DNA from: a virus
IMG/VR virus record: IMGVR_UViG_3300042879_001439
Location: 1 to 31,817 of that record
Length of the DNA stretch: 31,817 nt
Reading direction: 5' to 3' (one strand)
Both the position numbers and the translations under genes were made by a program. Shown piece by piece: positions 42 to 31,817 of this stretch (the stretch's first letter is position 1; each line of letters opens with the position of its first letter). The notes under the pieces were generated by a model. It was not told where the DNA came from. It saw only the letters and a list, made by a program, of their open reading frames with translations, and did not search any database.

Positions 42-467
42 ATGCCTGGAACTGGCCGAGCGCCGAAGCCGCAACTGCAGTCTGCTGCGCAGCAGAAGCG
101 CCGCGACGCGATCACGAAGCGCGTCGCAATGGATGATCAGTTGCGCGGCCCGGAGCTGCCCGCAGGCGATTGGCACCCTCGCACCCTGGCCTGGTGGGAC
201 ACCTGGCGTCGTTCTCCGCAGGCTCAGACATTCACGGTCACCGACTGGGACTTTCTCACCGACACGGCCCTGCTGCACTCGATGATGTGGAATGGCGCAG
301 AGCGCGTGGCGCCTGAGTTGCGGCTGCGGGTCGGCAAGTTCGGCGCGACGCCGGAGGACCGGCTGCGACTTCGCGTGCAGATCGAGGACGAGGTCGAGCA
401 GGTCGCAAAGACTCCGGTCCCGAAGGCCCGCAAGGCCAGGCTGCTGAATGTCGTCAACGCTTCGTGA
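42..467 (+). CDS. terS: Terminase small subunit
   Basis: 141-residue protein likely to recognise the packaging start on phage DNA and load the large terminase. The basic N-terminus (RAPKP, then KRRDA) precedes a WHP..LAWWDTWR segment at about residues 44-56 and a late RVGKFGATPEDRLRLR helix. I recognise this order from small terminase subunits of actinobacterial siphophages. The ATG at 42 has GAGGAAA just upstream. The gene overlaps the large terminase by 20 nt, suggesting coupled translation. Position directly before the large subunit supports the call. The HNH gene at the far right end would be its neighbour on a circular map. Confidence 0.82.
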   Translation: MPGTGRAPKPQLQSAAQQKRRDAITKRVAMDDQLRGPELPAGDWHPRTLAWWDTWRRSPQAQTFTVTDWDFLTDTALLHSMMWNGAERVAPELRLRVGKFGATPEDRLRLRVQIEDEVEQVAKTPVPKARKARLLNVVNAS

Positions 468-2028
468 GCAGGACACCCTCGGCTTTCAGCTACTCGACTG
501 GATCGAGAACTACCTAGTCCACGGGCCGGGCGATATCGAGGGCGAGCCGATCGTCCTTGACGACGAGTTCGCCGCGTTCCTGCTGAGGGCGTACCGCGTC
601 GGCAAGGACGGGTCGCGGGCTATCCGTCGCGCCGTCCTATCAAGGCCGAAGGGGCGGGCGAAGTCTGAGTTTGCCGCCATGGTCGGCGCTGCGGAGGCCA
701 TCGGCCCGGTGCGGTTCGATCACTTTGCCGGCAAGGGCGAGGTCTCGGCCTGGGGCTACGAGTACGCGGTCGGCGAGCCGGTCGGCGTGCCCGTGAAGCG
801 TCCCGAGGTGCTGTGCTTCGCCACGGAGCTGGGGCAGTCGGGCAACACCTACGAAGCGATTGCCTACATGCTGCACCAGGAGACCTGCTCGGCTGCGCTG
901 CGCCGGGACTATCCGCGGATCGACGTCGGGCTCACTCGCATCCTGCTGCCTGGCGGCGGCATCGTGTCGCCGGAGTCGGCTGCGGATTCCTCGAAAGATG
1001 GCGCGAAGTCGACGTACTGCGTCATGGACGAGACGCACCTCTGGGTTCATCCAAGGCTGAAGCGGATGCACCAGGTGGTGCTTCGGAACCTGCTCAAGCG
1101 CAAGGCCGCCGCAGGCTGGGCGCTTGAGACGACCACCATGTTCGCGCCTGGCGAGGGCTCGGTCGCCGAGGGGACGTTCGACTACTGGCGGCAGCAGGTC
1201 GAGGGACGCAGCAAGGATGACTCGCTGCTGTTCGACCATAAGCAGGCCTCCTCGAAGTGGGACGTGTCGAAGAAGCGCGACCGGCTCGCTGGCCTCAAGG
1301 AGGTCTACGGCCCGGCGGCTGCGTGGATGGACCTGGAGTCGATCGCTCGATCGTTCGACGATCCCCAGGTGTCGCCTGCCGAGTGGCAGCGCTACTGGTG
1401 GAACCTGCCGGTCAGCATCCAGGGCGGCTGGCTGAGCCAGAAGGCCTGGGACGAGTGCCAAGTGCCACGACCGATTCTTGACGGGGCGCGCGTGGTGCTC
1501 GCCCTCGACGGATCGTTCCGTGACGACTCGACTGCCGTGGTCGCCGTCGAGGTCGGCGAGTTCCCGCACCTGTCCGTCGTCGGCCTCTGGGAGCGGCCGA
1601 CCGACGACCACGACTGGCGCGTCCCGATCCTCGACGTGGAGGACGCGATCCGCACCGCCTGCCTGCGCTGGCAGGTCGTGGAGGTGATCGCCGACGCCTT
1701 CCGCTGGGCTCGCACCCTGGAGGTACTCGCCGACGAGGGCATCCCGGTCGTGGAGTTCCCGCAGACTGCCGCGCGCATGAGCCCGGCGACGCAGCGCTTC
1801 ACCGACTACATCAACGGCCGGCAGATGACGCACGACGGCAACCCCAGCCTGGCGCGACACGTCAGCAACGCGGTCCTGACCAGTGATTCACGTGGAACAC
1901 GCATCCGCAAGGAAGGCCGGATGTCGGCCAAGAAGATCGACCTCGCGGTCGCGTCGATCATGGCCCTCGAACGGGCCTGCCACTTCACCGAGGCACCAGT
2001 CGCCCCGGTCCCACAGTTCTTCGCGTAG
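448..2028 (+). CDS. terL: Terminase large subunit (packaging ATPase-nuclease)
   Basis: 526-residue DNA-packaging motor. It would pump DNA into the prohead using an N-terminal ATPase and cut concatemers with a C-terminal RNase H-like nuclease. Visible motifs are a degenerate Walker A (SRPKGRAKS, about residues 65-73), Walker B (YCVMDE, about 190-195), and nuclease acidic residues in VLALDGSF (Asp about 354) and EVIADAFRW (Asp about 416), with a late KKIDLAVA segment as the third acidic site. Length fits the family. The ATG at 448 overlaps the small subunit gene. A 406-aa open frame on the opposite strand is a high-GC shadow. Confidence 0.95.
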   Translation: MSSTLREQDTLGFQLLDWIENYLVHGPGDIEGEPIVLDDEFAAFLLRAYRVGKDGSRAIRRAVLSRPKGRAKSEFAAMVGAAEAIGPVRFDHFAGKGEVSAWGYEYAVGEPVGVPVKRPEVLCFATELGQSGNTYEAIAYMLHQETCSAALRRDYPRIDVGLTRILLPGGGIVSPESAADSSKDGAKSTYCVMDETHLWVHPRLKRMHQVVLRNLLKRKAAAGWALETTTMFAPGEGSVAEGTFDYWRQQVEGRSKDDSLLFDHKQASSKWDVSKKRDRLAGLKEVYGPAAAWMDLESIARSFDDPQVSPAEWQRYWWNLPVSIQGGWLSQKAWDECQVPRPILDGARVVLALDGSFRDDSTAVVAVEVGEFPHLSVVGLWERPTDDHDWRVPILDVEDAIRTACLRWQVVEVIADAFRWARTLEVLADEGIPVVEFPQTAARMSPATQRFTDYINGRQMTHDGNPSLARHVSNAVLTSDSRGTRIRKEGRMSAKKIDLAVASIMALERACHFTEAPVAPVPQFFA

Positions 2029-2038
2029 AGGAGGCGTC

Positions 2039-2173
2039 ATGGCTACCTGGCTTCAGGCCGCGGGCCTCGCCGCCATCACCATCGGCGTCGGGTTCATCTT
2101 CTGGCCAGCTGGCCTTATCGTCGGCGGCGTCGCCCTCATCCTCGCCGGGATCTCATTGGCCGGTGAGCGCTGA
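2039..2173 (+). CDS. Small hydrophobic membrane protein
   Basis: 44-residue protein with two closely spaced hydrophobic stretches (roughly residues 7-24 and 26-40, separated by a Pro/Gly turn), so probably a short membrane hairpin. The ATG at 2039 has an AGGAGG ribosome site 5 nt upstream, and the stop overlaps the portal start as TGATG, so translational coupling is likely. Function is unknown. A tiny membrane protein between terminase and portal is not needed for head assembly in model phages. It could influence the host envelope or be an accessory gene. Confidence 0.75.
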   Translation: MATWLQAAGLAAITIGVGFIFWPAGLIVGGVALILAGISLAGER

Positions 2174-3522
2174 TGCTGGAGCGACTCTTCGAGCGGCGCG
2201 CGATCACGTTCCAGTCGCTGTTCGCATCAGGCCAGGAGCTGCCGCGCCAGTCGCTGGCCGGCGTCACGGTCAACCAGGACACCGCGCTCCGGCTTGAAGT
2301 CTTCTACGCCTGCGTGCGGATCATCTCCGACACGATCAGCAGCCTTCCGGTCGACACGTTCGTCCGGTTCGACGGCCAGCGGCGTCCGTACCGCCCGCGC
2401 CCGGCCTGGGTCGACAATCCCGAGCCCGACCAGTCGATCCCGCGCTCCGATCACCTGGGCATGGTGCTGTGCTCGCTGATGATCGACGGCAATGCGTTCG
2501 TGCGCATCATCCGCTCGCCCTCCACGCAGGAGGTCGTGGCCCTCTCGGTGCTGGACCCGAACCGGGTCATCGTGCGCCGGAACCGCCAGGGCCGCATCGA
2601 GTACGTCATCGATCACGGCGCGTTCGTCGTCGCCGAGGACGACATGCGGCACATCACCGAGCTGCGCAAGCCCGGCCATCTGCGAGGCGTAAGCCGGGTC
2701 GAGGAGTTGAAGGAGACCCTCGGCCTGACCGGCGCGCTTGAGCAGTTCGCCGCGCGTTTCTTCGGGTCCGGCTCCACGACGTCGGGCGTCATCGAGGTTC
2801 CCGGCGACCTGAACGCCGAGCAGGCCGCGCGCATCCAAGACGGCTGGGAGCAGGCCCACCGTGGCCTGCGGCGCGCGCACCGTCCGAGCATCCTCGCTGG
2901 CGGCGCGAAGTTCATGAAGACCGGCGTCGACCCGAACGAAGCGCAGATGCTGGAGTCGCGCCAGTTCGCCGTCGAGTCCCTCGCGCGTGCGTTCCGCATC
3001 CCGCCGCACATGCTGCAGGTCACCAGGCCGGGCGCGATGTCCTACGCCTCGGTGGAGGAGAACGCGCGGCAGTTCGTGACCTTCACGCTGCTGCCGTACA
3101 TCTCCAAGATCGAGGAGGCGTACTCGAGCCTTCTGCCTGATCGGGCCTTCCTGCGGTTCAACGTCGACGGACTGCTTCGCGGATCGCTGCAGGATCGCTA
3201 TCAGGCGTACTCCATCGGCACACAGGCCGGGTTCCTGTCGATCAACGACATCCATCGACTTGAGGACATGACCCCGGTCGACGGCGGCGACGCCTACCGC
3301 GTCCCGCTCGCGAACGTGAACCTGCAAGCCGCCGACCTGGTCGAGACCAGCAAGCGGGTCGAGATGGCTCAGCGGCTGGTGTACTGCGGCTTCGACCCGG
3401 CGTCAGTGCTGCAGGCCCTCGGCCTGCCGAGCATCGATCACACCGGAGTGCCGTCCACGCAACTGCAGGCACTTTCGACCCTCGACCCGATCAACCCGCC
3501 GAGCCTTTACGAGGTGCAGTGA
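2173..3522 (+). CDS. Portal protein (HK97-like)
   Basis: 449-residue portal that would form the dodecameric ring at one capsid vertex through which DNA enters and leaves, and to which terminase and connector dock. Supporting features: FYACVRIISDTISSLP near residues 43-58, IDGNAFVRIIR about 106-116, the FFGSGSTTSGVIEVPG segment near 195-210, and ARAFRIPPHMLQV around 272-284. All are typical of HK97-type siphophage portals. Start overlaps the preceding stop (TGATG). It sits between terminase and the maturation protease, the standard order. Confidence 0.93.
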   Translation: MLERLFERRAITFQSLFASGQELPRQSLAGVTVNQDTALRLEVFYACVRIISDTISSLPVDTFVRFDGQRRPYRPRPAWVDNPEPDQSIPRSDHLGMVLCSLMIDGNAFVRIIRSPSTQEVVALSVLDPNRVIVRRNRQGRIEYVIDHGAFVVAEDDMRHITELRKPGHLRGVSRVEELKETLGLTGALEQFAARFFGSGSTTSGVIEVPGDLNAEQAARIQDGWEQAHRGLRRAHRPSILAGGAKFMKTGVDPNEAQMLESRQFAVESLARAFRIPPHMLQVTRPGAMSYASVEENARQFVTFTLLPYISKIEEAYSSLLPDRAFLRFNVDGLLRGSLQDRYQAYSIGTQAGFLSINDIHRLEDMTPVDGGDAYRVPLANVNLQAADLVETSKRVEMAQRLVYCGFDPASVLQALGLPSIDHTGVPSTQLQALSTLDPINPPSLYEVQ

Positions 3523-3785
3523 TGATTAGCAGCGGGCAGACGACTATCGGGACCGCGACCCCGGTGCAGATCGACGGCGCATCGGCGTCGGCCTCCATCC
3601 TGCACGTCGCCAACATCGACAACACCAAGACGATGTACCTGGGCGGCGCGAACGTCACGACCAGCAACGGCTTGCCGCTGTTCAAGCTGGAGCGGCTAAC
3701 GATCGACCTGCAGCCTGGCGAGCAACTGTTTGCGATCAGCAGCGACACCGGCCATACGGTCGCCTGGCTCCGGCAGGTGCTCTAG
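3522..3785 (+). CDS. Small beta-rich head-associated protein (hypothetical)
   Basis: 87-residue protein rich in Ser/Thr/Gly with a YLGGANVTTSNGLPL segment and DLQPGEQLFAISSDTGHTVAWL at the C-terminus. I recall this pattern from small beta-sandwich-like phage proteins encoded in head modules. Role is unproven; capsid decoration or a head-tail accessory role are options. ATG at 3522 overlaps the portal stop; a GTG at 3519 would add one residue. Its stop TAG shares its G with the GTG start of the next gene, so translation is probably coupled. Confidence 0.7.
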   Translation: MISSGQTTIGTATPVQIDGASASASILHVANIDNTKTMYLGGANVTTSNGLPLFKLERLTIDLQPGEQLFAISSDTGHTVAWLRQVL

Positions 3786-5359
3786 TGCCGTACTTCATCA
3801 CCGACTCTGCGCTTGGATGCGACGGCTGGGCGACGATCAAGGAGGACGGCGAGGTCATCGGCTGCCATGCCACCAAGCAGGCCGCGATCGACCAGATGGT
3901 CGCCGTCAGCATCGCCGAGGGCATCGAGCCTGGCGGCGAGCGCCTCGCTGGCGGGCCTGCTGCCGTCATCACAGACATCGACGGCACGCTGCTGGCCGGT
4001 GATCGGCCAATCCAGCGCGTCATCGACTTCGTGCTCGCGCAGCCTGGCTCGCTGTTCGTGCTGACCGCCCGGCTGGAGTCGGATCGATCGGCGACGGAGG
4101 CAGACCTCGACCGGATCGGCGTGACCTATCGCGCGCTGTTGATGAAGCCCGACGACGAGGACGACTCGACGCCTGACTTCAAGGCCGACATGGCCGAGGA
4201 GCTGCTGCAGACCTACGACGTGGTCATGGCCGTCGACAATGACCCGGCGAACCGGGCAGCGTTCGCTGCTCTCGGGATCGATGCCATCGACCCGGCTGAC
4301 ATCCCGGCCTCGCGATCCGTCGACCTGCGAGCCCAGGTTCCTGCCTACATGGCACGGGCAGCGCAGCGCGGCCTCGACCTGCGCGCCGACGGATTCGGCG
4401 GCGACGGCCTGACCGATCAGACGATCCGCGAGGCCAGGGCCATCGCTGGCGGCGACATGTCGGACGACAAGGTCATCCGCGCGAATGCCTGGGCCGCTCG
4501 CCATGCAGTCGACCTGCAGGCCGGGCAGAACTCCGACTCGGACGATCCTCGCTGGCCTGGAGCTGGCGCGGTTGCGCACTACCTGTGGGGAATCGATCCC
4601 CTTAACCCTGATCCCGCGAGGGCCTGGCTGGCAAGGACAGCGCAGGCGATCCAGGACGGAAGGACAACGCCGATGAGCGTCGAACAGCGTTCCATCACCA
4701 TCGAGGACTTCGAGCTGCGGCAGGCCGGCAACGGCATGTCCTTCAGTGGCTACGCCGCAGTCTTCGACAGCCCGAGCCAGCCGCTGCCGTTCGTGGAGAC
4801 GATCGCGCCGGGCGCGTTCAAGCGCTCGCTGTCGTCCCGAAACAACGTTCGGATGCTGCTCAACCATGACACCAGCCGCGTGCTCGGGACCACGCGCGCC
4901 AAGACGCTGCGACTGGCCGAGGACTCCAAGGGCCTGCATGTCGAGGCCGACCTGCCGGAGACCACCTACGGCAGGGACCTGTCGGTCTCGATGCAGCGCG
5001 GCGACGTCGACTCGATGTCGTTCGGTTTCAGCGTCCCCAAGGGCGGCGATTCGTGGAATGAGGACGGGTCTCGCCGCACCCTGCGCGAGGTCCGTCTGCA
5101 CGAGGTTTCTGTAGTCACCTTCCCGGCCTACGAGGCCACCTCAGCGCAGGTGCGGGACTACTCAGCTCTCGCCGTCCGCGCGCAAGCCGATCAGGACGCT
5201 ATCGCCGAAGCGATGGAGGCCCTGATCGACGGCAGCCTCACCGACGCGCAAGCCGAGCTGCTGCGCTCAGTCGTTGACCAGGCCGCGCCGAAGGCCGAGC
5301 CGTCGGTGCCGCTTTCAGTGCTGCAGAAGCAGCTGGACTTGATCGCCAAGTCCCTCTAG
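3785..5359 (+). CDS. HAD-phosphatase / HK97 prohead protease fusion
   Basis: 524-residue fusion. Residues 1-50 form a short YFIT...GEVIGCHATKQAAIDQM domain that I associate with head protease genes. Residues 60-172 look like a HAD-superfamily hydrolase: DIDGT nucleophile loop (Asp64/Asp66), Thr94 in VLTAR, Lys133, and the acidic DNDPAN motif at 151-156. Residues 195-292 form a helical segment (GDGLTDQTIREAR...NAWAARHAVDL). Residues 300-457 are an HK97-type (U35) prohead protease with GYAAVFD, His361 in LLNHD, Ser412 in SMSFGF and HEVSVVTFPAY. The protease trims the scaffold and delta domain of the capsid protein encoded next. The GTG start at 3785 overlaps the previous stop. An internal ATG at 4673 with a good ribosome site could yield the protease alone. 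What the HAD part does is unknown; it keeps all recognisable catalytic residues. Confidence 0.88.
   Translation: MPYFITDSALGCDGWATIKEDGEVIGCHATKQAAIDQMVAVSIAEGIEPGGERLAGGPAAVITDIDGTLLAGDRPIQRVIDFVLAQPGSLFVLTARLESDRSATEADLDRIGVTYRALLMKPDDEDDSTPDFKADMAEELLQTYDVVMAVDNDPANRAAFAALGIDAIDPADIPASRSVDLRAQVPAYMARAAQRGLDLRADGFGGDGLTDQTIREARAIAGGDMSDDKVIRANAWAARHAVDLQAGQNSDSDDPRWPGAGAVAHYLWGIDPLNPDPARAWLARTAQAIQDGRTTPMSVEQRSITIEDFELRQAGNGMSFSGYAAVFDSPSQPLPFVETIAPGAFKRSLSSRNNVRMLLNHDTSRVLGTTRAKTLRLAEDSKGLHVEADLPETTYGRDLSVSMQRGDVDSMSFGFSVPKGGDSWNEDGSRRTLREVRLHEVSVVTFPAYEATSAQVRDYSALAVRAQADQDAIAEAMEALIDGSLTDAQAELLRSVVDQAAPKAEPSVPLSVLQKQLDLIAKSL
4658..4675 (+). promoter_or_regulatory. Internal ribosome site and in-frame ATG for a free protease
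   Basis: GGAAGGA at 4658-4664 lies 8 nt before an in-frame ATG at 4673-4675 (Met297 of the fusion). Starting here gives a 228-residue product (MSVEQRSITIEDFELRQ...) that begins just before the protease domain and has the usual prohead-protease length. Seen directly: site, spacing and frame. Use as a real start is inference. Confidence 0.55.
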
Positions 5360-5363
5360 TTCT

Positions 5364-5381
5364 CGGCCAGGAGCCTGGCCG
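5364..5381 (+). other. Intergenic hairpin between protease and capsid genes
   Basis: CGGCCAG / CTGGCCG form a perfect 7-bp stem with a GAGC tetraloop, 4 nt after the protease stop. There is no U-run, so it is more likely an mRNA processing/stability element or weak attenuator that could set capsid versus protease expression. The remaining 67 nt before the capsid gene hold only its ribosome site (GGAAAGAAG) as a clear signal. Confidence 0.45.
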
Positions 5382-5448
5382 GTAGTTCCCGCGTGCGGAG
5401 CCGCAGCGGATTGCCATCACTGCGATCACTCCGAACAAAGGAAAGAAG

Positions 5449-6636
5449 ATGAGTGCATATCTTGCGCGCCAGATCGAGGCGCGCCAGGAGGCTTGGCACG
5501 CTGCCAAGTCCCTGCTCGATCGCGCCGCCTCCGAGAGCCGGGACCTGTCCGGCGAGGAGGAGCAGTCATACCAGCGCATGATGGAGGACATCGACAAGCG
5601 CGGCCAGGTCATCGCTGACCTGCAGGCCGCCGAGGCCCGCGAGGCCGACATCGCTGCCAGCGTCATCACGGCCCCAGAGGTGCGCGGGAATCGCATCGAG
5701 GTCGCCCGCACCGACGCCGACATCGTCCGGTCCCTCGCCGCTGGCGAGATGCGTTCCTACACCTTCGAGCGCCGCGACCTCAACACCACCGACGACTCCA
5801 GCATCGTGCCGCAGTCGTTCTACGACGTGATCCAGGAGAACCTGGTGACGGTCGGCCCGATGGTCGACGGCAACTACGTGACCCTGCTGAACACCGCGTC
5901 CGGCGAGGACATCAAGGTGCCGGTCGAGTCGACCCGGCCTGCAGCCACGGCCATCGCCGAGGCGACGCAGATCACCGCGCTCGATCCGACGTTCAGCAGC
6001 ATCACGCTGAAGAGCCAGAAGGTGGCCGTGCTCACGGTCGTCAGCCGCGAGATCCTCACGGACTCCGGCATCGACCTGGTCGCGTTCCTGGGTAGGTCGC
6101 TCGGCACCTCTATCGGCATCAAGGCCAACGGACTGCTCACCACCGGCACCGGCACAGTGCAGCCGAATGGCATCGTCACCGCTTCAGGCTCGGGCGTGAC
6201 CGGCGGCACGGGCGTCTCCGGCGTACCGACAGCCGACAACCTGATCGACCTTGTTCACTCGGTCGATTCGGCCTACATCCGTCGCGGCGCTCGCTTCATG
6301 GCCCGCCGGACCACGATCGGCGCTATCCGCAAGCTCAAGGACACGGCGGGGAATTACCTCTTCGTGCCGGCGGCGACAGTCGGCAGCCCGGACACCCTGC
6401 TCGGGTTCGAGATCGTGGAGAACCCCGACGTTGCCGCGACCGGAACGGCGGTCAAGTCCGTCCTCTTCGGATGGACCGGCTCCTACCACACCCGCATGGT
6501 CGGCGGCCTGGAGATCGCACGCAGCGACGACGCCTACTTCGACACCGATGAGGTGGGCTTCCGAGCGACGATGCGGATCTGGGGCGACCTGGGCCAGTCG
6601 GCAGCCGTCAAGCACTTCGTCGGCGGCACCGCCTAG
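5449..6636 (+). CDS. Major capsid protein (HK97 fold)
   Basis: 395-residue shell protein. Residues 1 to about 95 are a charged, coiled-coil-prone delta/scaffold-like segment (ARQIEARQEAWHAAK...DLSGEEEQSYQRMM) that the upstream protease would remove. The mature part starts near SSIVPQSFYDVIQENLV and shows E-loop/P-domain features such as KSQKVAVLTVVSREILTDS and LGTSIGIKANGLLTTGTG, with the C-terminal GFRATMRIWGDLGQS. These match HK97-type capsid proteins of siphophages. Start ATG at 5449 has GGAAAGAAG upstream. A strong terminator follows, consistent with high-level expression ending here. Confidence 0.94.
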   Translation: MSAYLARQIEARQEAWHAAKSLLDRAASESRDLSGEEEQSYQRMMEDIDKRGQVIADLQAAEAREADIAASVITAPEVRGNRIEVARTDADIVRSLAAGEMRSYTFERRDLNTTDDSSIVPQSFYDVIQENLVTVGPMVDGNYVTLLNTASGEDIKVPVESTRPAATAIAEATQITALDPTFSSITLKSQKVAVLTVVSREILTDSGIDLVAFLGRSLGTSIGIKANGLLTTGTGTVQPNGIVTASGSGVTGGTGVSGVPTADNLIDLVHSVDSAYIRRGARFMARRTTIGAIRKLKDTAGNYLFVPAATVGSPDTLLGFEIVENPDVAATGTAVKSVLFGWTGSYHTRMVGGLEIARSDDAYFDTDEVGFRATMRIWGDLGQSAAVKHFVGGTA

Positions 6637-6753: not shown

Positions 6754-8010
6754 ATGGATCGTGCAGCACGTCGTCGCGCCGCGCGCGGCAACGGAAAGAG
6801 GATCGCTGGAGTCTGGCTGTCCAATGCACCGTGGGCACCCACGGGATACGGACAGCAGACCGCCCAGGTCATCCCCCGGATCGTCGCCGATGGCCATCGG
6901 ATCGCCATCGCGGCGAACTACGGCCTAGAGGCCGCATCCACGAGCTGGGAGGGCATCGACGTCTGGCCTCGCGGCATGGACGTCTACAGCCAGGACATGG
7001 CAGCGCCGTATTACAGAGACTGGATCAAGCAGCACCCAGGCATGACTCCAATCATGTTCACGCTGTTCGACGTCCACGTCTTCACGAGTCCGCAGTGGGA
7101 GTCGATGAACGTGGTGCCCTGGCTTCCGGTCGACCATATGCCGGTCCCGCCAGCGGTGGCGGCCTTCTGCGGCAAGCCGAACGTGCATCCGATCGCGATG
7201 AGCCTCTTCGGCCAGGAGCAGTTGCACCGGCGAGACATCGACGCGCACTACGCGCCGCACGCGATCGAGGCAGTGTTTCGTCCGACGCAACACGTCGAGC
7301 AGCAGGACGGCAAGCGGATCACCGGGCGGCAGTTGACCGGCTGGGACCCAGATCACTTCGTGGTCCTGATCGCGAACGCAAACAAGGGCGTGCCGACGCG
7401 CAAGGCATTCGGCGAGCAGGTGCTGGCGTTCTCGATCTTCGCGGCGAAGCACGACGATGCGCGGCTGTTCATCCACTCGGAGCAGTTCGGCGCGATGACG
7501 GGCATCCAGTGGGACCCGCTGCTGGAGGCCTGCGGCGTCAAGGACAAGACGAAGTTCATCAACCAGTACCAAATGCGCATCGGCATCCCGCCCGAGGCAC
7601 TCGCTGCCATCTACAGCGGGTCCGACGTCATGCTGAACCCAACGATGGGCGAGGGCTTCGGCATCACCCAGCTTGAGGCCCAGGCGTGCGGACTTCGGGT
7701 CATCACGCAGGACTTCAGCGCCCAGGCCGAACTGGCTGGTCCGGATTCCATCAAGGTCACGGGTCAGCCCTGGTGGGACGCGACTCAGCACGCCTGGTTC
7801 TCGACGCCCAGCGTCCCGCAGATGGTCGATGCCTTAGAGCAGATGTACCAGCAGGGCCAGGTGCGCAGCGACGCAGCTGCAGCCTGGGCGCGCGATAGCT
7901 ACGACGCCGACGTCGTGTACGCGCGTCACTGGCGACCGATCCTCGACCACCTGGCCGAGGAGATAGGAGAGGAGGGACCGTGCCAATCGTCAACGGATAT
8001 TGCACCCTGA
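6754..8010 (+). CDS. GT-B glycosyltransferase (group 1/GT4-like)
   Basis: 418-residue probable glycosyltransferase encoded inside the head module. The C-terminal half shows the nucleotide-sugar signature GEGFGITQLEAQACG with an EX7E pair (Glu300/Glu308), preceded by IYSGSDVMLNPT. The N-terminal half begins WLSNAPWAPTGYGQQT, typical of a Rossmann-like acceptor domain with a Gly-rich loop. No signal peptide or membrane segment, so it acts in the cytoplasm. Plausible substrates are virion proteins or host glycans; the neighbouring capsid gene makes virion glycosylation attractive but unproven. Its end overlaps the next gene by 31 nt. The unusual leader upstream suggests regulated translation. 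A second sugar-transfer cassette lies at 28099-30018. Confidence 0.85.
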   Translation: MDRAARRRAARGNGKRIAGVWLSNAPWAPTGYGQQTAQVIPRIVADGHRIAIAANYGLEAASTSWEGIDVWPRGMDVYSQDMAAPYYRDWIKQHPGMTPIMFTLFDVHVFTSPQWESMNVVPWLPVDHMPVPPAVAAFCGKPNVHPIAMSLFGQEQLHRRDIDAHYAPHAIEAVFRPTQHVEQQDGKRITGRQLTGWDPDHFVVLIANANKGVPTRKAFGEQVLAFSIFAAKHDDARLFIHSEQFGAMTGIQWDPLLEACGVKDKTKFINQYQMRIGIPPEALAAIYSGSDVMLNPTMGEGFGITQLEAQACGLRVITQDFSAQAELAGPDSIKVTGQPWWDATQHAWFSTPSVPQMVDALEQMYQQGQVRSDAAAAWARDSYDADVVYARHWRPILDHLAEEIGEEGPCQSSTDIAP

Positions 8011-17877: not shown

Positions 17878-17910
17878 GATTTCTCCCTCGGTATGCCTGC
17901 CTCATCAGGC

Positions 17911-17949
17911 CCAGGGCGGCACCCCTGGACGACCGGGCCGGAGCCCGGT
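17911..17949 (-). other. Two tandem hairpins between minus-strand genes
   Basis: In the 77-bp gap, ACCGGGC/GCCCGGT (17932-17938 with 17943-17949, CGGA on the plus strand as loop) and CCAGGG/CCCTGG (17911-17916 with 17923-17928) form two perfect stems of 7 and 6 bp. They follow the upstream gene's stop on the minus strand. No U-run follows, so partial attenuation or mRNA stabilisation is more likely than full termination. Confidence 0.45.
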
Positions 17950-17954
17950 TTCGG

Positions 17955-18197
17955 CTACTCGTAGGTGGCGAATCGGCCGCGCGCGACGAGGGTGTCGCCC
18001 TGGGCCTCGTAGCCGCTTTCGCGGTAGATCTTGGCGTCGCGCATGTACCGATCGGCGCGGGCGAAGTATCCGGGATCAAACTTCGTGCTGCGCGTGTAGA
18101 CGGTCACCCCGTCGCTGGTCACGGTCAGTCGGCACCGGTCAGCGGCTGCCGCGTCCGGGCCGAGGGTGATGGTCACGTCCTTGATGACGGGGGTCAT
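17955..18197 (-). CDS. Small hypothetical protein, first gene of the minus-strand unit
   Basis: 80-residue protein from the ATG at 18197, which has AAGGAGA 5 nt upstream. It is beta-rich at the N-terminus (VIKDVTITLGPDAAAADRCRLTVTSDGVTVYTRST), then has a helix with YFARADRYMRDAKIYRESGYE. Not recognised. A second possible start is the ATG at 18227, which lies 7 nt after the -10 hexamer and would suit a leaderless mRNA, adding 10 residues. It heads the putative regulator group behind a strong promoter. Confidence 0.65.
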   Translation of the reverse strand: MTPVIKDVTITLGPDAAAADRCRLTVTSDGVTVYTRSTKFDPGYFARADRYMRDAKIYRESGYEAQGDTLVARGRFATYE

Positions 18198-27485: not shown

Positions 27486-28102
27486 GCACCTGTCCTCTCG
27501 TCCACGCCGAGCCAGCCGAGTCCACCGTGGGACGGCTCTGCCGCTGGCACGCGACCCGGGCCAGGAAGGCCGTCGAGTCGATCCCGCAGGCGTACTACGC
27601 ACTCGCCGCCAGGCTGCAGCCGACCGGCCAGGGACTCGGCAGCATCCCGACCCACACGATGGACCCAGGGCTCAACCTCGACCATCGCGTCGTCGCGTGC
27701 CGCTCGGACATGCGCAACACCACCAGCACCTGGGCCAGGGTCGTCATCGAGGAGCGGCAGGTCCACGCGCCGCAGGACACCATCGGCCACGTCTGCGCGT
27801 TCCTGTCGGCGCACCTGGACTGGTCCCTCCGGCAGCCGTGGGGACACCAGCACGCACTGGACCTGATCGGCGTGTGGGAGACGAGCAGGAGCCTGCTCGA
27901 CCCGAACCCGGTGCGGCGGTTCGCCGTCGGCCCGTGTCCCGAGTGCGCCGGGACGCTGATCGCGCACATCCGGCCAGCAGACAGCCTGCTGCCGCACGAG
28001 GTCGTCTGCGATCAGTCGCCGGTCGAGGACGGCTATCCGACGCACGCATGGACCGCAGACAAGTGGCTGACACTCGGCCGCAAGATCAGGAGCCCCAAGT
28101 GA
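27482..28102 (+). CDS. Conserved hypothetical phage protein with zinc pair
   Basis: 206-residue protein with Cys-rich N-terminus (STCPLVH...LCRWH), central helices (TIGHVCAFLSAHLDWSLRQPW) and a C-terminal CPECAGTLIAHIRPAD...VVC zinc-ribbon-like part ending in a helix-rich WTADKWLTLGRK. I recall similar proteins near helicase genes in actinobacterial phages but know no function. ATG at 27482 overlaps the helicase stop. Could bind DNA or RNA. Confidence 0.7.
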   Translation: MSTCPLVHAEPAESTVGRLCRWHATRARKAVESIPQAYYALAARLQPTGQGLGSIPTHTMDPGLNLDHRVVACRSDMRNTTSTWARVVIEERQVHAPQDTIGHVCAFLSAHLDWSLRQPWGHQHALDLIGVWETSRSLLDPNPVRRFAVGPCPECAGTLIAHIRPADSLLPHEVVCDQSPVEDGYPTHAWTADKWLTLGRKIRSPK

Positions 28103-28743
28103 TCCCAGCCATGATCGTCCCCGTACTCGCCAGGCACGAGCTCCTCGATCGGCTCGTGCAGTCCATCGACCACCCCGTCGACCACCTCGTCGTCATCGAC
28201 AACGGCCAGGTCATGGACCGCGCGCCATTCAGCGAGCACGTCCATCGCTCAAGCCTGATCTCGATGCCGGCCAACCTGGGCGTCGCCGGATCGTGGAATC
28301 TCGGCATGAAGGCCACGCCGTTCGCTCCCTGGTGGCTCATCGTCAACTTCGACGCCTCGTTCCCGCCGGGAGCGCTGGCCAGGCTGGCCGAGGAGGCTCG
28401 CCTCGACGCCGTGGTCCTGTCAGCCGCCAGGCCGCCGTGGTCATGCTTCACCATCGGCGAGGACGTGATCCGCAAGGTCGGACTCTTCGACGAGCGCTTC
28501 CACCCGGCGTACTTCGAGGACGACGACTACGCCTGGCGGTGCCACCATCATCAGGTCGACGTGCATCACGGCGACGTCCACGTCGAGCACGAGAACTCCA
28601 GCACCCTGACGGCAGGCGAGTACCGCAAGCGGAACGACGCCTCCTTCTCCACGAACGCCGTCACGCACGTGTTCAAGCGGCAGCGGGGCGACTACTCGGC
28701 TGGCTGGGACCTAGACAAGAGGCGGCTGAACACATGGGACTAG
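28099..28743 (+). CDS. GT-A glycosyltransferase (family 2-like)
   Basis: 214-residue predicted glycosyltransferase with GT-A features: MIVPVLARHELLDRLVQSI, DHLVVIDNG, the NLGVAGSWNLGM motif (about 59-70), WWLIVNFDASF holding an acidic cluster, and FHPAYFEDDDYAWR (about 134-147) typical of the catalytic base loop in family 2. No membrane segment. First of three successive genes (transferase, DUF115-like, methyltransferase) that look like a glycan-building unit. GTG at 28099 overlaps the previous stop. Confidence 0.87.
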   Translation: MIPAMIVPVLARHELLDRLVQSIDHPVDHLVVIDNGQVMDRAPFSEHVHRSSLISMPANLGVAGSWNLGMKATPFAPWWLIVNFDASFPPGALARLAEEARLDAVVLSAARPPWSCFTIGEDVIRKVGLFDERFHPAYFEDDDYAWRCHHHQVDVHHGDVHVEHENSSTLTAGEYRKRNDASFSTNAVTHVFKRQRGDYSAGWDLDKRRLNTWD

Positions 28744-29351
28744 ACATCTACGTCCTCGGCAGCGGCCCGAGCCTGCAGCACATCCCGCTCGACTTCTGGC
28801 AAGGCAAGGTCATCGTCTCCACGAATCACGGCTGCACGCTGCGCGGCATCAAGCCGGACTACCTCGTCACCAAGTACCACCATCACGCTCGCGAGTACGC
28901 CGAGCGCTTCCCGGCCAGCCGAATCGTCGTCACCCGGCACGACCGAGGCGATGTCAACCAGCCGCAGATCGAGCCGGGGCCGTGGATCGTGCTCGACCAC
29001 GAGCAGAACCTCTGTGAGCGCTGGGACGGCCAATGGCCCGAGGCCGGCAAGTTCCTCGTGACCTTCTCCACCATCACGACCGCCATGCACTGGGCGATGC
29101 ACTTGGGCGCGCGAAACGTGATCCTCGCCGGGCACGACTGCGGCTGGATCGGCGGATCAGGCAGGGTCGACGGCTACCGCCGCGACTCCGAAGGCCACGG
29201 CAGGGACGACGACTCGCACCTCTGGTCCACGTTCAGCGCGCAGACCGCCCTCGTCAAGCAGCAGCTCTGGGAGCGCTTCGGCGTGACCGTGACCAGCGTG
29301 AATCCGTTCATCAACCTGGCCCTCGAAGGCCACGAGTACCGGAAGGCATGA
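28734..29351 (+). CDS. DUF115/sialyltransferase-like glycan transferase
   Basis: 205-residue protein with the Rossmann-like start IYVLGSGPSLQHIPL, STNHGCTLRGIKPDYLVTKYH, then LVTFSTITTAMHWAMHLGARNVILAGHDCGWI. This order is typical of DUF115/MptE-like and bacterial sialyltransferase-like enzymes acting on sugars or lipid-linked groups. It overlaps the glycosyltransferase by 10 nt and is followed by a methyltransferase. Likely a second step in glycan synthesis; the substrate is not readable from the sequence. Confidence 0.78.
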   Translation: MGLDIYVLGSGPSLQHIPLDFWQGKVIVSTNHGCTLRGIKPDYLVTKYHHHAREYAERFPASRIVVTRHDRGDVNQPQIEPGPWIVLDHEQNLCERWDGQWPEAGKFLVTFSTITTAMHWAMHLGARNVILAGHDCGWIGGSGRVDGYRRDSEGHGRDDDSHLWSTFSAQTALVKQQLWERFGVTVTSVNPFINLALEGHEYRKA

Positions 29352-29352
29352 A

Positions 29353-30018
29353 ATGGACTGGCAGGCACTGCAGCAGGATTCCGAGGCTTACTGGACCCGC
29401 AACAACGGGCAGCACCACCAGCACCCCGACCCCATCGAGGAGACCCTCGACCGCATCCACCGGCACACGCCGATTCTCGACGCCTTCGAGGCCGGTGCAT
29501 CGGACGGCTGGCGACTGCAGTGGATGCAGGCCAAGTACGGCTGCCGGGTGCAGGGGATCGACGCCAGCGCGTCAGCGGTCAAGCAAGCCAGCGTGCCGGT
29601 GCGGCACGGCATCGCGCCGTTCAGCATGGAGCAGTTGAGCGAAGCCGCCTTCGACCTGGTCATCCTCGGCTTCTTCGCCTACTTGCTGCACCGATCCCAG
29701 TCCCTGCGCCTGGCCGCCGCAGTCGACAAGATCCTGCGGCCCGGCGGTCACCTCGTCATCGTCGACTTCCTCTCGCCGTACCCGACGAGAGCCGACTACG
29801 CGCACCATCCCGGCCTGGCCGTCTGGAAGCAGGACCTGTCGGCACTGTGGACCGGGAGCCCGCAGTGGACCCTGGTCGACCGCACCCTCATCGAGCACCA
29901 GGCGCACGACGTCGACAACGCCGACCCGGCCAGATGGATCACCGTCGACGCGATCCGAAAACTGCCGACCGACCTCGCCTGGGCCGACATCGAGCCGCCA
30001 AGGAGCCGCACAGCATGA
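29353..30018 (+). CDS. SAM-dependent methyltransferase
   Basis: 221-residue class I methyltransferase. Motif I ILDAFEAGASDGWRL (41-55) binds SAM, GIDASASAV (69-77) gives the acidic ribose contact, FDLVILGFFAYLLHR is motif IV and LRPGGHLVIVDF is motif VI-like. The YWTRNN start and overall layout recall methylases tied to pseudaminic-acid or O-antigen pathways. It stands 1 nt after the DUF115-like gene, so it may cap or modify the same glycan. DNA or RNA as substrate is less likely given the neighbours. Confidence 0.85.
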   Translation: MDWQALQQDSEAYWTRNNGQHHQHPDPIEETLDRIHRHTPILDAFEAGASDGWRLQWMQAKYGCRVQGIDASASAVKQASVPVRHGIAPFSMEQLSEAAFDLVILGFFAYLLHRSQSLRLAAAVDKILRPGGHLVIVDFLSPYPTRADYAHHPGLAVWKQDLSALWTGSPQWTLVDRTLIEHQAHDVDNADPARWITVDAIRKLPTDLAWADIEPPRSRTA

Positions 30019-31455: not shown

Positions 31456-31751
31456 AGCCCTGTCTGAGGTGCGGCCAGCCCACCCAGGGCAGCCGCTGCC
31501 CAGCCTGCCGACCACCAGCAGCACCGTGGAGCGCCGCCAAGCGATCCCTCTACGGCAACGCCGACTACCGACGTCGAGCCAAGGAAGTCCGCGACAACGC
31601 GAGCGCCTGCTGGATCTGCGGGGAGGGGGCACGGCCCGGCGATCCCTGGCAAGCCGACCACGTCCAGCCAGGCGACCCGGCATCCCCCCTGCTGGCCGCC
31701 CATCGATCCTGCAACGCGCGTCGAGCGAACGAAGCGCGCCGCAAGGGATGA
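31452..31751 (+). CDS. HNH endonuclease next to terminase (genome end)
   Basis: 99-residue nuclease: N-terminal zinc ribbon (CLRCGQPTQGSRCPAC), a basic helix, then the HNH core CWICGEGARPGD...QADHVQPGD and LLAAHRSCNARRANEA. HNH proteins beside terminase genes assist DNA cleavage during packaging in many tailed phages. On a circular map this gene directly precedes the small terminase subunit, which strongly supports that role. GTG at 31452 overlaps the preceding stop. Confidence 0.88.
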   Translation: MKPCLRCGQPTQGSRCPACRPPAAPWSAAKRSLYGNADYRRRAKEVRDNASACWICGEGARPGDPWQADHVQPGDPASPLLAAHRSCNARRANEARRKG

Positions 31752-31761
31752 CCCCATCCCC

Positions 31762-31781
31762 CCCCCGAGTTTCATCGGGGG
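31762..31781 (+). terminator. Terminator-like hairpin at the genome end
   Basis: CCCCCGA pairs with TCGGGGG (7 bp, loop GTTTCA) 10 nt after the HNH stop, next to a run of 9 C (31758-31766). It may terminate early transcription before the terminase genes. The remaining 31782-31817 and 1-41 hold no gene and could contain the packaging site. Confidence 0.6.
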
Positions 31782-31817
31782 TCGGTCCCGATCTGCGACG
31801 CGACGACAAACGCGCAC

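Follow-up and report, generated by a model that had tools for sequence, protein, structure and literature searches.

A T4 Pnkp-like HAD domain is one of several exchangeable modules in the head maturation protease gene of a metagenomic phage

Polyvalent proteins are multidomain phage proteins built from shuffled enzyme and non-enzyme modules, and they are thought to enter the host along with the phage DNA (Iyer et al. 2017, PMC5512222). They are the closest published concept for the gene described here, which joins a HAD domain to an HK97-type head maturation protease and lies in a 31,817-nucleotide stretch of viral DNA (IMG/VR record IMGVR_UViG_3300042879_001439, positions 1 to 31,817), called the window throughout. 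The likeness lies in the 26 architectures seen in 149 proteins and in the presence of two of the domains, A and GL, ahead of a Zeta-kinase tail and of other tails that match a minor head protein. The two systems differ in that the constant partner here is the head protease, and a term search of the text of PMC5512222 found no phosphatase, HAD or maturation protease named as a component.

HK97-type head maturation proteases (phrog_80, TIGR01543) share with the window protein the protease core with its His, Ser and Glu residues and the gene position between portal and capsid, and the phrog_80 profile also includes domain A, a four-cysteine (Cys4) module and the GL region. The window protein differs from them by some 300 additional N-terminal residues, by exchangeable modules and by a conserved internal start, and its HAD domain falls outside the phrog_80 match. 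The described counterparts of the HAD domain are the 3'-phosphatase domain of T4 Pnkp (PDB 1rrc, 5uj0, 1ltq) and bacterial Pnkp1 (4xrp), which have the same capless HAD fold (Z 16.5-17.6), whereas the window domain is only 19-24% identical to them, comes without a kinase domain and is fused to a protease. The closest isolated relative is Pontimonas phage phiPsal1, whose prohead protease (AUV61415.1, 40.8% identity) has the order A, module, GL, protease within the same gene order, with a Cys4 module where the window has HAD. Three proteins of uncultured Caudovirales phages (UniProt A0A6J5R419, A0A6J5PW45 and A0A6J5R7M5) have predicted structures that match the window model and bear automatic names only, prohead protease or HAD-like domain protein. 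Similar sequences are therefore already in databases but undescribed; a literature search returned no paper on the HAD-protease fusion, on its internal start or on these UniProt proteins.

In the window, the portal gene (2173-3522) is followed by a small ORF (3519-3785), the stop codon of which overlaps the GTG start of the long-form gene, a single open frame of 524 amino acids (3785-5359, + strand). The major capsid gene of HK97 type comes next (5449-6636, + strand), which places the protease gene between portal and capsid as in Peptidase_S78/U35 systems. The protein begins with domain A (residues 1-53; 3785-3943), which carries a 'CxGWATxKxDGEVIGCH' motif, is matched by the start of phrog_80 and forms the unvarying end of the module slot. 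The exchangeable cassette (3943-4326) contains the HAD domain (residues ~57-173; 3953-4303), recognised by profile, fold and motifs, with the codons of the catalytic Asp64 and Asp66 at 3974-3982. The helical domain GL (residues ~185-292; 4337-4660), the second near-constant module, precedes the protease, whose Peptidase_S78/U35 core spans residues 309-458 (4709-5158). A Shine-Dalgarno-like AAGGA (4660-4664) stands 8 bases ahead of an internal ATG, the codon of Met297, from which a short-form gene encoding the protease alone is predicted (4673-5359); all these elements are on the + strand. The earlier note on this DNA, made from the sequence alone, had described a continuous 524-codon frame with a small N-terminal domain, a HAD part, a helical part and a U35 protease, and each of these was recovered. 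The full-length AlphaFold model (pTM 0.33) does not place the domains reliably relative to each other; its low-confidence flexible linkers are residues 51-56, 176-183 and 292-299.

The assignment of the protease is firm. Peptidase_S78 (PF04586) matched residues 309-458 with an E-value of 1e-49 (169.3 bits, cut-off 21) and TIGR01543 matched the protein with an E-value of 1.4e-38 (132.3 bits, cut-off 59). His361, Ser412 and Glu440, which we take to be the catalytic residues of the S78/U35 protease, were invariant in 30 aligned relatives. The major capsid protein, in which about 118 residues forming a delta-like scaffold region precede the capsid domain, is the expected target.

Since metagenomic contigs can be chimeric, we considered that the fusion might be an assembly or gene-calling artefact. 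The HAD-protease frame recurred in dozens of metagenomic phage contigs, making up 75 of 149 distinct frames running from A to the protease, a set enriched in HAD by one of the contributing scans. Its recurrence in many independent samples, its low dN/dS and the existence of public prohead-protease and HAD-like proteins of the same kind make an artefact a negligible concern. As for hosts, a scan of genomes with a single sequence found no relatives, and an alignment-based scan found five contigs, with HAD in none of the five. The genome contigs with relatives belonged to Microbacteriaceae MAGs, Actinomarina MAGs and one Proteobacteria MAG, and phiPsal1 infects Pontimonas salivibrio. Actinobacterial hosts are likely for these phages.

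The identity of the HAD domain was examined with profiles and structures. The 'polynucleotide kinase' family phrog_415 matched residues 72-180 (E 4.7e-15, or 2.4e-16 with the domain alone). Acid phosphatase PF03767 (E 1.6e-6) was the sole Pfam model to pass its own cut-off in the HAD region; the window protein scored 15.2 bits with HAD_PNKP (PF25109; cut-off 27.6), a cut-off that was passed by the homologue in related locus L134 (36.1 bits). While phmmer with the full-length protein found zero matches among PDB sequences, a profile search of the same sequences retrieved Pnkp1 (E 4e-8) and T4 Pnkp (5.6e-5), and class C acid phosphatases also appeared. The domain was modelled by AlphaFold2 from 50 homologues with a mean pLDDT of 94.9, and the best Foldseek match of the model was the 3'-phosphatase domain of T4 Pnkp (E 2.8e-6). 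VIA-align placed T4 Pnkp at the top of the HAD families listed (Z 17.6, rmsd 1.6 Å over 115 residues), with Pnkp1 at Z 16.6, Nir2 at ~15, plant storage protein and lipin at 12-13 and class B acid phosphatases at ~10.7. With its Rossmann-like fold and its DxD, T/S, K and acidic motif IV, the domain belongs to the HAD superfamily, and a chance motif match was ruled out by the agreement of profile, fold and conservation. The HAD call made previously thus survived the fold search proposed as its check; 'HAD-like' was true but too general, the fold being that of a T4 Pnkp-type 3'-phosphatase.

The catalytic motifs are all present in the window: DIDGT (Asp64, Asp66, Thr68), TAR (Thr94, Arg96), Lys133 and DND (Asp151-Asp153). 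In the profile search of the PDB, Asp64, Asp66, Thr94, Arg96, Lys133 and Asp151-Asn152 aligned to the motif residues of T4 Pnkp, Asp165, Asp167, Ser211, Arg213, Lys258 and Asp277-278, so that DxDGT, Ser/Thr, Arg213, Lys258 and motif IV are common to both. All four motifs were intact in 27 of the 28 distinct HAD homologues found by two scans with no pattern in the DxD motif; a scan using a DxD pattern, in which 39 of 39 were intact, was excluded as evidence, being biased by its own search pattern. The single exception (L019) reads DIGMT, having lost the second Asp (Asp66) and kept the domain. Asp64 and Lys133 were invariant in the 50-sequence set, and the catalytic columns were the most conserved of the domain. 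Against the two nearest relatives, the dN/dS of the HAD domain was 0.027 and 0.045, similar to that of the protease (0.043 and 0.036). Given the low dN/dS and the retention of the catalytic residues by 27 out of 28 homologues, the domain is quite probably an active phosphatase, a prediction drawn from sequence. The earlier note had held that the retained catalytic residues argue against a structural remnant; we agree, dN/dS adding to the case, and a decayed remnant is rejected on both counts. The Asp residues, which it had proposed to follow in homologues, are not routinely lost.

Which phosphatase this may be is less clear. Two residues of T4 Pnkp, Arg176 and Asp254, which we assume to be required for its 3'-phosphatase, align to positions without a conserved residue in the window HAD family, so the substrate may differ from that of T4 Pnkp. 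Together with the passing of PF03767 alone among Pfam models and the class C acid phosphatases of the profile search, this could indicate an acid-phosphatase-like or nucleotide phosphatase instead of one acting on nucleic-acid ends, within an architecture otherwise as we propose below. However, T4 Pnkp and Pnkp1 (Z 16.5-17.6) stand well above the acid phosphatases (~10.7), phrog_415 and phrog_505 both bear the name polynucleotide kinase, and the L134 homologue passes the HAD_PNKP cut-off. We consider the acid or nucleotide phosphatase a somewhat unlikely alternative.

We then compared the segment between A and the protease across related loci, using profiles for A, HAD, Cys4, Tudor-like (PF11160), DUF5824-like, GL and protease run on all of them. 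The string between A and the protease was assembled from HAD, Cys4, Tudor-like, DUF5824-like and GL modules in 26 different orders among the 149 distinct proteins that hold A and protease in one frame, and HAD was placed before or after GL, Cys4, Tudor-like or DUF5824-like modules. Only A, GL and the protease were near-constant, and in some relatives A was joined to GL with no module between them. A scan with domain A only, which has no preference for HAD, found HAD in 21 of 80 ORFs (not deduplicated, some clipped by contig ends). The exchange itself could be seen in close relatives. The window and L007 share 94.9% identity over 144-3942 and 96.2% over 4327-6524; in place of the 384 bases in between (3943-4326), which are exactly the HAD cassette, L007 and L008 carry a Cys4 cassette of 213 bases. 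A second exchange pair was found in L005 (HAD) and L010 (Cys4), with flanks about 91% identical. A phylogeny of 73 protease domains required at least 20 changes in HAD presence, 13 of them forced by well-supported branches. Each architecture was represented in it by one sequence at 90% identity, a choice that inflates the label count, and recombination of the protease would make the picture less sharp. These data show at least four interchangeable modules at one spot, a slot where cassettes are often exchanged. The swaps and the 26 architectures lead us to reject the first reading of the fusion as a fixed, dedicated HAD-protease pair: HAD is one exchangeable module, absent from most relatives in the scan with domain A (found in 21/80) and replaced by Cys4 in a ~95%-identical phage.

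Such free exchange raises the possibility that the modules, HAD included, are structural, filling or organising the prohead core in a scaffold-like manner or setting the amount or timing of protease entry, with the HAD domain used for its fold. HAD is exchanged, even in near-identical phages, for small domains without a known enzyme role; A, GL and the protease alone are near-constant; and L019 still keeps the HAD domain without Asp66. On the other hand, the catalytic residues are the most conserved HAD columns and are intact in 27/28, a scaffold-like region is already present at the N-terminus of the capsid protein itself, and some relatives have no module at all between A and GL. On balance we find a purely structural role unlikely.

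The modules that share the slot have features of their own. The Cys4 module (4981-5193 in L007) occurred in 51 distinct copies in related loci and has a CxxC followed, mostly after 14-19 and then 12 residues, by the next Cys. It weakly resembles HiPIP iron-sulfur proteins; the HiPIP profile PF01355 gave E-values of 0.08 and 0.2 on this module (13.6 and 12.4 bits), below its cut-off of 22. It would be unusual for a head protease to contain a metal-cluster domain. In L163 and L187, an extra small module resembling DUF3721 (PF12518, E 6.5e-8) lies between A and the DUF5824-like module, indicating that the deck is larger than the five modules profiled.

The junction between the module string and the protease was then considered. 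Most relatives have a Met 9-13 residues ahead of the protease profile, and an ATG was found near the protease boundary in 125 of 138 unique proteases. A Shine-Dalgarno match of at least 4 bases preceded 84 of these 125 ATGs, compared to 162 of 1367 other in-frame ATGs; counted by protease cluster (<80% identity), a start codon with such a match was present in 30 of 35, against 96 of 620 control windows. In the window, the signal is AAGGA, 8 bases and the ATG at 4673. The possibility that the motif at 4660 merely reflects charged linker residues was rejected, since the enrichment persists with amino acids fixed: when synonymous codons were drawn from the same ORF, 13 of 20 were observed versus 3.9 expected, and none of 2000 simulations reached as high. 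In addition, five relatives (L038, L154, L156, L157 and L196) have a stop at the protease boundary, with string and protease as separate adjacent ORFs, and the protease must therefore start there as its own gene; in L170 the two are separate with one gene between. These results make it probable, as far as sequence can tell, that the gene yields two products, the long form and the protease alone. The conserved internal start at 4673 adds to what the earlier note had pictured.

In L154 the separate string ORF carries the HAD domain. This ORF, together with the fact that other phages have their Pnkp-type phosphatases as free enzymes, would suit a HAD domain that works in the host cytoplasm during infection, on substrates such as nucleotides or RNA ends, with the fusion merely tying its expression to late genes and no need to enter the head. 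But the string adjoins the protease or shares its frame in nearly all relatives, and A and GL are also found on tails matching a minor head protein family, which leaves the cytoplasmic role rather unlikely.

These other tails were found in several loci. In L170 (207-1793), A-Cys4-GL is joined to a P-loop Zeta-type kinase (Pfam E 5e-26). This tail has further matches to the kinase half of phrog_505, named polynucleotide kinase like phrog_415, and to a 'minor head protein' family. In L134 (3325-4998) and L144 (4615-6291), A-HAD-GL is joined to an unclassified tail with a weak match to the minor head protein family of L170; a by-eye reading of these tails as ADP-ribosyltransferase was dropped, as no profile supports it. 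In L105 (5809-8073), HAD is the N-terminal part of a head protein of 755 aa from a different family (phrog_859/phrog_18402), which has a maturation-protease match and, following the protease-like part, a GL-like domain of its own, indicating that HAD joined head proteins more than once. Taken together, the tails of L170, L134, L144 and L105 indicate that the modules, including HAD, belong to head-associated proteins beyond this protease.

The explanation that we favour is that the long form, from the GTG at 3785, would be a string of accessory modules carried on the head maturation protease, and the short form, from the ATG at 4673, the protease alone. Judging from the protease family, from which both the prohead location and the cleavage are inferred, the long form would co-assemble into the prohead via its protease part, as in HK97, bringing the module inside the head, where the protease would probably sever it at the flexible linkers. 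Work by Duda in 2013 reportedly found that fusions to the HK97 protease are carried into proheads. An HK97 prohead holds about 60 protease copies (PMC12749128), so that, should the long form enter the head, tens of module copies could fit inside. The HAD domain would be a phosphomonoesterase, its likeliest substrates being DNA or RNA ends that bear a 3'-phosphate (or 2',3'-cyclic phosphate); in the head, at ejection or within the cell, it could clean the termini of the packaged or ejected genome or, early in infection, those of host RNA. Because the slot is a site of frequent cassette exchange, the phosphatase would be an optional extra suiting some hosts or conditions rather than a head-building step. 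Counting against this, the replacement of HAD by Cys4, which has no known enzyme role, is a pattern that a purely structural slot would also give. Among the window ORFs scanned, which are part of the total, neither a kinase nor a ligase was recognised as a separate partner. For the whole chain, from dual products through prohead entry and release of the module to end healing by HAD, we judge the chances to be about even.

Other features of the window were also recorded. A type II hammerhead ribozyme lies after the tail genes on the - strand (17891-17956; 55 bits with Rfam RF02276, cut-off 37). Hammerhead products end in a 2',3'-cyclic phosphate, and T4 Pnkp-type phosphatases can remove such ends. 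Glycosyltransferases, an MptE-like protein and a methyltransferase are encoded at 6754-8010, 27697-28743, 28293-29351 and 29353-30018, the first of these ORFs lying directly after the capsid gene, a position that it also has in phiPsal1. In L007, positions 2-1184 link the last 113 bases of the window (31705-31817) to its first genes (1-144) via about 1 kb, which suggests a circular or permuted genome in which the two window ends adjoin; the linking stretch holds a 272-aa ORF (251-1069) that looks HNH-nuclease-like by eye.

A broader and more tentative reading is that the head protease gene is a cargo locus: the long protease form would take slot modules into the head and release them for delivery to the next host, the internal start would supply cargo-free protease, and host defences or DNA/RNA damage would select among the modules. 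The joint cargo, put forward just as tentatively, would comprise an end-healing phosphatase, a possible metal-cluster domain, a Tudor-like domain and others, with a kinase in some relatives.

Head proteases are usually seen as transient assembly tools, whereas here the gene is a hot spot for module exchange. Near-identical phages trade whole enzyme or binding modules at one exact site, and a second start separates the protease from its passengers. The HAD/Cys4 swap pairs in ~95%-identical phages offer a ready comparison for the role of each module. If the passengers do enter the head, the protease would be a natural cargo-loading tag.
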